Positions 3,803-4,464 of a stretch of DNA of 64,000 nt are shown here, piece after piece. The stretch is from Gemmatimonadota bacterium (GTDB lineage Bacteria; Gemmatimonadota; Gemmatimonadetes; Longimicrobiales; Gaopeijiaceae). The notes beneath the pieces were generated by a model that saw only the letters and a program-made list of their open reading frames with translations, did not search any database and had not been told where the DNA came from. The DNA is taken from positions 1 to 64,000 of the forward strand of contig SKKN01000006.1 of assembly GCA_007121455.1 (NCBI GenBank), in the 5' to 3' direction. The position numbers were made by a program, and so were the translations under genes. How positions within the stretch are numbered: position 1 is the first letter of the stretch; each line of letters begins with the position of its first letter.

Positions 3803-3830
3803 CAAAAAAACCCAGCCGCGCGGCTGGGTT
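3803..3830 (-). terminator. intrinsic terminator of the arg leader (attenuator)
   Basis: The perfect palindrome 3809-3830 gives a 9-bp GC-rich stem with a GCGC loop on the minus-strand RNA. The A run at 3804-3810 becomes a run of seven U residues. It points towards argB and lies 63 bases upstream of its start, so it can only stop transcripts coming from the leader. This placement, together with an alternative pairing partner upstream, is the arrangement of an attenuator. Confidence 0.85.
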
Positions 3831-3893
3831 TCGGGTGCGAATGGCTTCGTGACAGCGAGCTAACGCATTACCCAGCCGGGAGATGGGGCTGGA
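3821..3893 (-). promoter_or_regulatory. antiterminator / anti-antiterminator segments of the arg attenuator
   Basis: On the minus-strand RNA, segment A (CCAGCC, 3892-3887) can pair with segment B (GGCUGG, 3877-3872). B as CGGCUGGGU (3878-3870) is also perfectly complementary over 9 bases to C (ACCCAGCCG, 3829-3821), which forms the 5' arm of the terminator. A:B permits the terminator; B:C prevents it. The arginine codon run ends at 3893, immediately before A, and the leader stop codon (3862-3860) lies just after B. This is the geometry needed for ribosome-position control. Folding energies were not computed. Confidence 0.7.
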
Positions 3894-4057
3894 CGTCGGC
3901 GTCGCAGACGAAGCGCTGCCGTGAGGGCTGCCGGGCGCCGGCTCGAAGGGGGCTCGATTCCATTCATGCGATCAACGTGGGGGAGGCCGCCGGAAGGCGC
4001 AACCCTGCCCACGCCGGCGCCCCGGCCCGAGGGTCGAAGGGCCCCGGTCTGGGCCAT
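3860..4057 (-). CDS. putative arginine leader peptide (attenuator)
   Basis: A 65-codon reading frame starts with ATG at 4057. A strong ribosome-binding site, GGGAGGTG (4074-4067), lies nine bases upstream. Codons at 3910-3893 read Arg-Leu-Arg-Arg-Arg-Arg and use CGT, CGA and CGC; twelve of 65 residues are arginine. The frame ends in TAG at 3862-3860, inside the attenuator region. If a ribosome stalls on the arginine run it would cover segment A and free B to form the antiterminator; finishing translation would cover B and favour termination. The peptide itself probably has no other function. An internal ATG at 3967 lacks a ribosome-binding site. Arginine is common in shadow frames of GC-rich DNA, so the case rests on the combination of signals. 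Confidence 0.65.
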   Translation of the reverse strand: MAQTGALRPSGRGAGVGRVAPSGGLPHVDRMNGIEPPSSRRPAALTAALRLRRRRPAPSPGWVMR

Positions 4058-4218: not shown

Positions 4219-4464
4219 ATGTCCGAAGAAGAATATTCGACGGTCAAGCTCACCGCCGTGTTGGCCGGGTTTCTGGGAGCGGGGTCGCTCACGACCTTCG
4301 TCGTCTGGCATACGCTGAGCGAATTCGTCGCGGGGCGACCGGTCGAAGGGGGGCAGTATCTCCTGGCGCTCGCACTCCTCGGCGTCTTCGCAGCGCTTGC
4401 CTGGCTCCTCGGCCGGTATGTGCAGGGAGCCATCGGGGACACGCTGGACGGAGAGGAACGATGA
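4219..4464 (+). CDS. small two-helix membrane protein of the oxidase operon
   Basis: An 81-residue protein with two hydrophobic stretches (about residues 9-30 and 46-66) and a charged tail. The ATG at 4219 has AGAGGA upstream, and its stop overlaps the next start as ATGA. I do not recognise a named family. Its position as first gene of a ba3-type cytochrome oxidase operon suggests a small accessory or structural subunit, or an assembly helper, in the inner membrane. That role is inferred from context only. Confidence 0.7.
   Translation: MSEEEYSTVKLTAVLAGFLGAGSLTTFVVWHTLSEFVAGRPVEGGQYLLALALLGVFAALAWLLGRYVQGAIGDTLDGEER

Follow-up and report, generated by a model that had tools for sequence, protein, structure and literature searches.

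Organization of the argB upstream region

The window, the whole stretch of DNA that was analysed here, is 64,000 nt long and comes from a Gemmatimonadota bacterium. A leader ORF and a terminator occupy the gap between argB (3740-2415, minus strand) and a divergent cox cluster (plus strand from position 4219). The argB product is a bifunctional N-acetylglutamate synthase/kinase (NAGS/K) with AA_kinase and NAT domains (Pfam), and the gene is followed by argC and argH. A preliminary description of this DNA had proposed that the gap carries a leader-peptide attenuator assembled from a run of arginine (Arg) codons, four pairing segments (A to D) and seven U residues. All of these elements are present on the minus strand, where an ORF with an Arg run and a putative attenuator is placed ahead of its cognate biosynthetic operon. 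The features are as follows.

4074-4067, minus strand: GGGAGGTG, upstream of the 65-codon frame (sequence)
4057-3860, minus strand: 65-codon frame, from ATG at 4057 to the stop codon TAG at 3862-3860 (sequence)
4002-3974, minus strand: predicted promoter, -35 TTGCGC (4002-3997), 17-nt spacer, -10 CACGTT (3979-3974); layout like that of genome G001 and many relatives, prediction only
3967-3860, minus strand: leader peptide ORF, 35 codons plus stop, MNGIEPPSSRRPAALTAALRLRRRRPAPSPGWVMR, probably leaderless; ends like the leader of G001 (RARRRRPPSIPGWGVA before the stop) and Wenzhouxiangella leaders
3910-3893, minus strand: putative regulatory Arg run, CGT CTG CGA CGC CGA CGT (sequence; Arg run conserved in relatives; CGA enrichment)
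3892-3887, minus strand: segment A, CCAGCC, able to pair with B in the window copy (present in the ribosome-free fold; A:B not conserved in relatives)
3878-3870, minus strand: segment B, CGGCUGGGU, predicted free strand of the antiterminator, overlapping the end of the leader ORF (B:C covariation; position relative to Arg run and stop)
3862-3860, minus strand: leader stop codon UAG, adjoining B (sequence; geometry)
3832-3804, minus strand: intrinsic terminator hairpin C:D with a seven-U tract (terminator scan; folding)
3829-3821, minus strand: segment C, ACCCAGCCG, partner common to B and D (covariation)
3818-3810, minus strand: segment D, CGGCUGGGU, 3' arm of the terminator (terminator call; covariation)
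3810-3804, minus strand: seven U residues of the terminator
3740-2415, minus strand: argB, bifunctional NAGS/K, first gene of the putatively regulated operon in the window (Pfam; tree)
2451-1468, minus strand: argC, N-acetyl-gamma-glutamyl-phosphate reductase, start approximate (Pfam; orthologues in G001 and G015)
1480-158, minus strand: argH, argininosuccinate lyase, start approximate (orthologues in the arg loci of G001 and G015)

Hairpin C:D is premature relative to argB, as the upstream minus strand holds no gene that would need a terminator. The hairpin has a predicted energy of -18.3 kcal/mol (z -4.8). Segment B has the same letters as segment D (CGGCTGGGT), and the segment from B to C folds as a perfect 9-bp antiterminator (-24.0 kcal/mol, z -3.6), just as had been suggested. 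This arrangement is not easily expected by chance: six-codon windows with at least five Arg codons make up only 0.055% over all frames of the window, and the Markov chance of a 9-nt copy of D within 65 nt before the terminator is 0.0004. Among the 12 GC-rich terminators found by a scan of the 64 kb, only one has an Arg-run ORF, and that one also carries the B copy. The stretch TAATGCGTTAGCT, which we take to resemble antisense 16S rRNA, was treated as a chance likeness; in the window only the leader itself matched.

Ancestry of argB and history of the operon

The argB product is 60-65% identical to enzymes of Wenzhouxiangella and allied gammaproteobacteria and 67-70% identical to enzymes from two further genera in the Gemmatimonadota family to which the window belongs. 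In a maximum-likelihood tree, three Gemmatimonadota NAGS/K cluster in a single clade (100/99), which joins Wenzhouxiangellaceae (99/97), while other Gemmatimonadota NAGS/K join Lysobacteraceae/Rhodanobacteraceae apart from the window clade. From these sequence relationships, argB is best read as a Xanthomonas-type NAGS/K that was gained by horizontal transfer from Wenzhouxiangella-like gammaproteobacteria. Bifunctional NAGS/K apparently entered the window's Gemmatimonadota family twice, once as the type that joins Wenzhouxiangellaceae and once, in other genera, as a 48%-identical type that joins Lysobacteraceae/Rhodanobacteraceae.

G001, which represents a different Gemmatimonadota genus, shares the cox-divergent neighbourhood (CoxII 82%, CoxI 84%, small divergent ORF 63%), and for this reason the contig does not look chimeric at the arg/cox junction. 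At this syntenic locus in G001, the attenuator heads argF', with a leader ending in VTRARRRRPPSIPGWGVA before the stop codon compared with LRLRRRRPAPSPGWVMR in the window. In both G001 and G015 argB is found inside the operon, and in G001 only the region ahead of argF' carried the leader. The only counterparts in the window's genome, an ordinary OTC (34%) and an argG with distant similarity (28%), lie elsewhere, from which we infer that argF'-argG-argE were probably lost between the leader and argB in the window lineage. The best explanation for the window attenuator would be that it was inherited together with the Xanthomonas-type arg operon from Wenzhouxiangella-like gammaproteobacteria. Such an acquisition was invisible in the preliminary description, which was made from a single sequence.

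The proposed attenuator in related genomes

In gammaproteobacterial NAGS/K loci, a terminator of the form ACCC(A/G)GC...GC(T/C)GGGT followed by a U tract lies approximately 3.3-3.9 kb upstream of the NAGS/K gene, at the operon head, and is preceded by a copy of its own 3' arm ~44 nt upstream and by an Arg-run ORF. An Arg-run leader with attenuator heads the arg operon in nearly all of the Lysobacterales/Wenzhouxiangella-type loci that were examined. In these relatives (Wenzhouxiangella-like bacteria, Lysobacteraceae and Rhodanobacteraceae) the operon is argF'-argG-argE-argB-argC-argH; in Lysobacter soli, for example, Pfam content gives AOTC (argF')-argG-argE-argB-argC-argH. The X. campestris arg operon has an arrangement close to that of Lysobacter soli, and the text of the paper describing it mentions no leader or attenuation (PMC1865377). 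The attenuator lies directly before argB in Wenzhouxiangella sediminis and directly before argG in Wenzhouxiangella sp. 15190. As judged from these gene orders, the putative switch keeps to a head position while the head gene changes. In W. sediminis (L062 / L176), argF'-argG-argE are kept upstream on the same strand with no attenuator at argF'; the position of the attenuator directly before argB is the end state also seen in the window.

The attenuator seems to be single-copy and dedicated in the genomes compared: the carA upstream regions of the eight genomes checked contained no attenuator. Second matches to the leader peptide pattern (MTSRARR, see below) in two genomes had no terminator downstream and look like chance. 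A search for the leader in 58 relatives by direct DNA similarity returned only terminator-like matches. No attenuator was found in the upstream regions of NAGS/K relatives in Sorangium, Minicystis and planctomycetes, and no convincing Arg attenuator was found in the stretches examined from other Gemmatimonadota with the 48%-identical enzyme. A clear B is absent in a few relatives (for example L100, L117 and L121). Several leaders with the MTSRARR motif (L148-L153, L106, L117 and L121) have a weak or shifted B, and their antiterminator may be built differently.

Leader peptide, codon usage and start site

In Lysobacteraceae/Rhodanobacteraceae, the leader peptide takes the form (A/S)GMTSRARRP. 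A degenerate MTSRARR pattern was matched in 117 of 250 genomes of the order (Lysobacterales), with one match in the backward control, and each of the 30 cases that were fetched had a terminator 56-84 nt downstream. Across 55 leaders the MTSRARR codons show only synonymous variation; this holds by construction for the 30 loci found with the pattern, but not for the loci found via argB. M, T, S and A show no more amino-acid change than the Arg residues do, with synonymous sites varying freely, and the synonymous-only variation therefore indicates, at the level of sequence comparison, that the leader ORF is under coding constraint in these two families. For the window, this inference rests only on homology to G001; what the window and Wenzhouxiangella-type leaders have in common is limited to the Arg run and a loose PGW ending.

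In 51 of the 55 leaders CGA, a rare codon, occupies the last Arg position, whereas it makes up 2% of the Arg codons of argB genes there; the third base at this position had been left open in the search pattern. Similarly, CGA accounts for 28% of leader Arg codons in Wenzhouxiangella-type leaders, including that of the window, compared with 6% in argB genes. The enrichment of CGA in leader Arg codons over argB genes is about fivefold to fourteenfold.

The preliminary description took the leader peptide to be a 65-codon frame with a ribosome-binding site. Both the frame and GGGAGGTG exist, but the layout in relatives points to a different start. Many relatives carry TTGCRN-17-N6-(6-8)-ATG ahead of the leader; specifically, G001 has TTGCGC-17-AAGATT-7-ATG and the window has TTGCGC-17-CACGTT-6-ATG (3967). 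Because the relatives' ATG lies 6-8 nt behind the -10 element, the real leader start is probably ATG 3967 (35 codons). The transcript is predicted to start at the leader AUG, which would probably make it leaderless and leave the upstream GGGAGGTG outside the transcribed region. Leaderless initiation is only a prediction without transcription start site data, as the window's -10 (CACGTT) is a weak match to a -10 element and the upstream layout differs in some Rhodanobacteraceae. A conserved GTTGCATGGCAGCGAAAATCCCGTCATG-like block lies upstream of the leader in some Rhodanobacteraceae (L158-L169) and is possibly another promoter or a regulator site.

Geometry, folding and covariation of the proposed switch

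Among the leaders, the median distance from the start of the last Arg codon to the start of B is 21 nt (5-95%: 16-24; 19 nt in the window), and the stop codon follows the start of B by a median of 6 nt (14 nt in the window). A ribosome covers approximately 12 nt beyond its A site. With these spacings, a ribosome on the Arg run would therefore leave B free, while a ribosome at the stop codon would cover it. Folding of the RNA left exposed gave B:C with a ribosome on the Arg run and D not yet made, C:D with a ribosome at the stop codon, and A:B plus C:D without a ribosome. The antiterminators have a mean stability of -21.4 compared with -16.9 for the terminators. Equilibrium folding of the full downstream RNA is won by the terminator, and the switch must therefore be kinetic, as in other attenuators.

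It had been suggested that relatives be compared for conserved Arg runs and for compensatory changes in all four segments. The Arg run is conserved, and the intrinsic terminator and the mutually exclusive antiterminator both covary. The centre base of B tracks C (A-T 31, G-C 15, G.T 4, mismatch 2), and in alignment A3 the paired cells amount to 94% for B:C and 93% for C:D, with paired cells and covariation score of both helices above all 500 shuffles and all slid controls. A tree-corrected test was underpowered: about 3-4 independent switches agree and 0-1 are against (p 0.25). For segment A the outcome was different. The proposed choice between A:B and B:C exists in the window, where the A:B helix can form, but in a set of 79 leaders A and B pair no better than in shuffled controls (4.41 vs 4.80). 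The proposed trigger, masking of A, is not general either, as B:C wins over A:B in folding even with A exposed. Segment A was consequently rejected as a general part, and with it a trp-type three-segment attenuator, since the conserved 1:2 (A:B) helix is absent outside the window copy. Simpler attenuators do not need a 1:2 helix, and the failure of A:B therefore lowers the case for the three-segment type and not that for an attenuator. Based on the alignments, the conserved core is B:C versus C:D.

Distribution of the proposed attenuator and ArgR

Arginine synthesis in bacteria is usually described as ArgR-controlled. We searched 250 Lysobacterales genomes for ArgR (PF02863) and for the attenuator, the latter with a covariance model (R1, 109 positions) built from 48 leaders. 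The search recovered ArgR from controls that included E. coli and B. subtilis, but from only 8 of the 250 Lysobacterales genomes. R1 matched 191 of the 250 at E ≤ 1e-3 and 151 at ≤ 1e-6. These E-values are rough, with gene-end terminators reaching down to 5e-7, and 191 should be taken as an upper-side count. Second R1 matches that were examined (L220-L223) were mostly gene-end terminators. None of the eight ArgR-bearing genomes had an R1 match (hypergeometric 7e-6, or 5e-4 with the strict count, uncorrected for phylogeny). In the window's family R1 matched 2 of 117 genomes at E ≤ 1e-3, and both were training sequences. ArgR is present in the window's own genome, G001 and G015, and no ARG box was matched in the window with up to 3 mismatches allowed. 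Given its own ArgR, arg control in the window's genome may be mixed.

Proposed mechanism and alternatives

The preliminary reading of an Arg-codon leader-peptide attenuator ahead of the arg genes is strongly supported by conservation, covariation, geometry and the loss of ArgR in relatives. We consider it very likely that the element attenuates transcription by way of a translating ribosome, with charged arginine tRNA as the signal, and was inherited with the acquired operon. The evidence is entirely comparative and includes no expression data: it covers anatomy, conservation, covariation, geometry, ancestry and ArgR distribution, while translation of the window leader, the transcription start and the arginine response are inferred.

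In the proposed mechanism, RNA polymerase would start at or beside AUG 3967, and a ribosome would translate the 35-codon leader behind it. With plentiful Arg-tRNA, the ribosome would clear CGT-CTG-CGA-CGC-CGA-CGT, reach the UAG adjoining B and cover B; C would then pair with D, and transcription would end at the U tract near 3804. With scarce Arg-tRNA, the ribosome would stall on the Arg run about 19-21 nt short of B, and free B would pair with C, such that no terminator forms and argB-argC-argH are transcribed. Without translation, C:D would form by default, aided in the window copy by the A:B helix. The general trigger would thus be a ribosome that arrives at the stop codon and masks B, and not the masking of A.

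Ornithine- or tryptophan-sensing leaders and the fungal arginine attenuator peptide are precedents for sensing through the nascent chain. GMTSRARRP could likewise be an arrest peptide that stalls the ribosome, perhaps with free arginine as the ligand; the RNA switch would be the same, but the signal would not simply be uncharged Arg-tRNA. The invariance of M, T, S and A in Lysobacteraceae/Rhodanobacteraceae speaks for this possibility, as codon sensing alone needs no T, S or A. We nevertheless find it quite unlikely as the explanation here: the window and Wenzhouxiangella-type leaders do not share these residues, the use of the rare CGA as the last Arg codon favours sensing at the level of codons, and arrest by excess arginine on the Arg run would free B and turn the genes on, which is the wrong sign for a biosynthetic operon.

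Another possibility is that the hairpin is only a constitutive terminator, for instance one that serves a small RNA or decoy ORF between the divergent cox and arg genes, with the Arg run as a by-product of 66% GC. Arg-rich frames are indeed common in GC-rich DNA, and translation cannot be proven from the window alone, but the operon-head position, Arg run, B copy, spacing and covariation are conserved across phyla and the combination occurs at just one of the 12 window terminators, which leaves this reading very improbable. Control of the terminator by a ligand- or tRNA-binding leader (riboswitch or T-box) or by a protein-bound antiterminator, with the ORF incidental, has hardly any credit: further structure is possible in the B-C loop, but this loop varies in length and sequence among leaders, the coding signature and stop-codon placement require a ribosome, and no Rfam family reached its gathering score in the window or in the leaders of 15 relatives' loci, where scores were far below threshold.

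Beyond attenuation by charged Arg-tRNA, a broader proposal is that a single transferable RNA attenuator replaced ArgR across a gammaproteobacterial order, that GMTSRARRP both reads Arg codons (through the rare CGA) and acts via the nascent peptide, and that the module crosses phyla with its operon, bringing its own arginine control. Taken as a whole, this is conceivable but doubtful.

Comparison with known systems

The suggestion that an arginine attenuator might be undescribed stands as far as our searches extend. Rfam, NCBIfam and Pfam had nothing for the leader, and a literature search, to which most subscription journals were out of reach, found no arginine attenuator and no paper stating how the arg operon of Lysobacterales (the order of Xanthomonas, Stenotrophomonas and Lysobacter) is controlled. 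A 2004 survey of proteobacterial attenuators reportedly does not list arginine. There was also no arginine attenuator in the accessible portions of an attenuator survey of Actinobacteria (PMC1262725), a premature-terminator survey (PMC2965389) and a structured-RNA survey of 26 genomes (PMC8632094).

The trp, his, leu, ilv, thr and pheA attenuators of Proteobacteria and Actinobacteria likewise combine a short ORF with regulatory codons, an intrinsic terminator, a competing antiterminator and a cognate operon. Unlike the trp/his type, the arg element is putatively arginine-specific, for which no report was found, has a two-hairpin core without a conserved 1:2 helix, is predicted to be leaderless, and heads a long operon of the acetylated-citrulline route in mostly ArgR-free bacteria. 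Arginine T-box leaders of Firmicutes also read Arg-tRNA charging by premature termination, but they do so by direct tRNA binding and without a leader ORF, and an Rfam T-box match is absent at the arg leader.

Mycobacterial polycysteine attenuators (Canestrari 2020, cited in PMC9031893) similarly have a leaderless short ORF with tandem cognate codons; they differ in amino acid (cysteine) and phylum, and the arg element has a conserved intrinsic terminator/antiterminator pair. The Rhodobacterales uORFC-8-2 cysS motif (PMC8632094) is also a leader ORF in which comparative genomics recognized tandem cognate codons together with features of attenuation, but it controls a tRNA synthetase with Cys codons, and its gene, codon and order differ from those of the arg element. 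ArgR repression in E. coli and Bacillus (regulons in PMC5343134) serves the same physiological task, but ArgR is a DNA-binding repressor and not an RNA attenuator, and it is absent from 242 of the 250 Lysobacterales genomes.

The mechanism class is known; what appears to be new is its specificity for arginine, its use across an order in the absence of ArgR, its probable leaderless start and its inter-phylum transfer. A conserved arginine attenuator would provide a direct, testable answer for arg control in the mostly ArgR-free Lysobacterales, would extend leader-peptide attenuation to arginine, and would be a case of an attenuator seen travelling with its operon between phyla. The 109-position model also represents a candidate new RNA family with a conserved small ORF, both missing from the annotation libraries searched.

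Macrolides stall ribosomes at Arg-x-Arg-like motifs. The GMTSRARRP leaders (L107-L175), which are invariant in amino acids beyond Arg, contain an Arg-x-Arg motif, and macrolides might therefore induce the arg operon in these bacteria.
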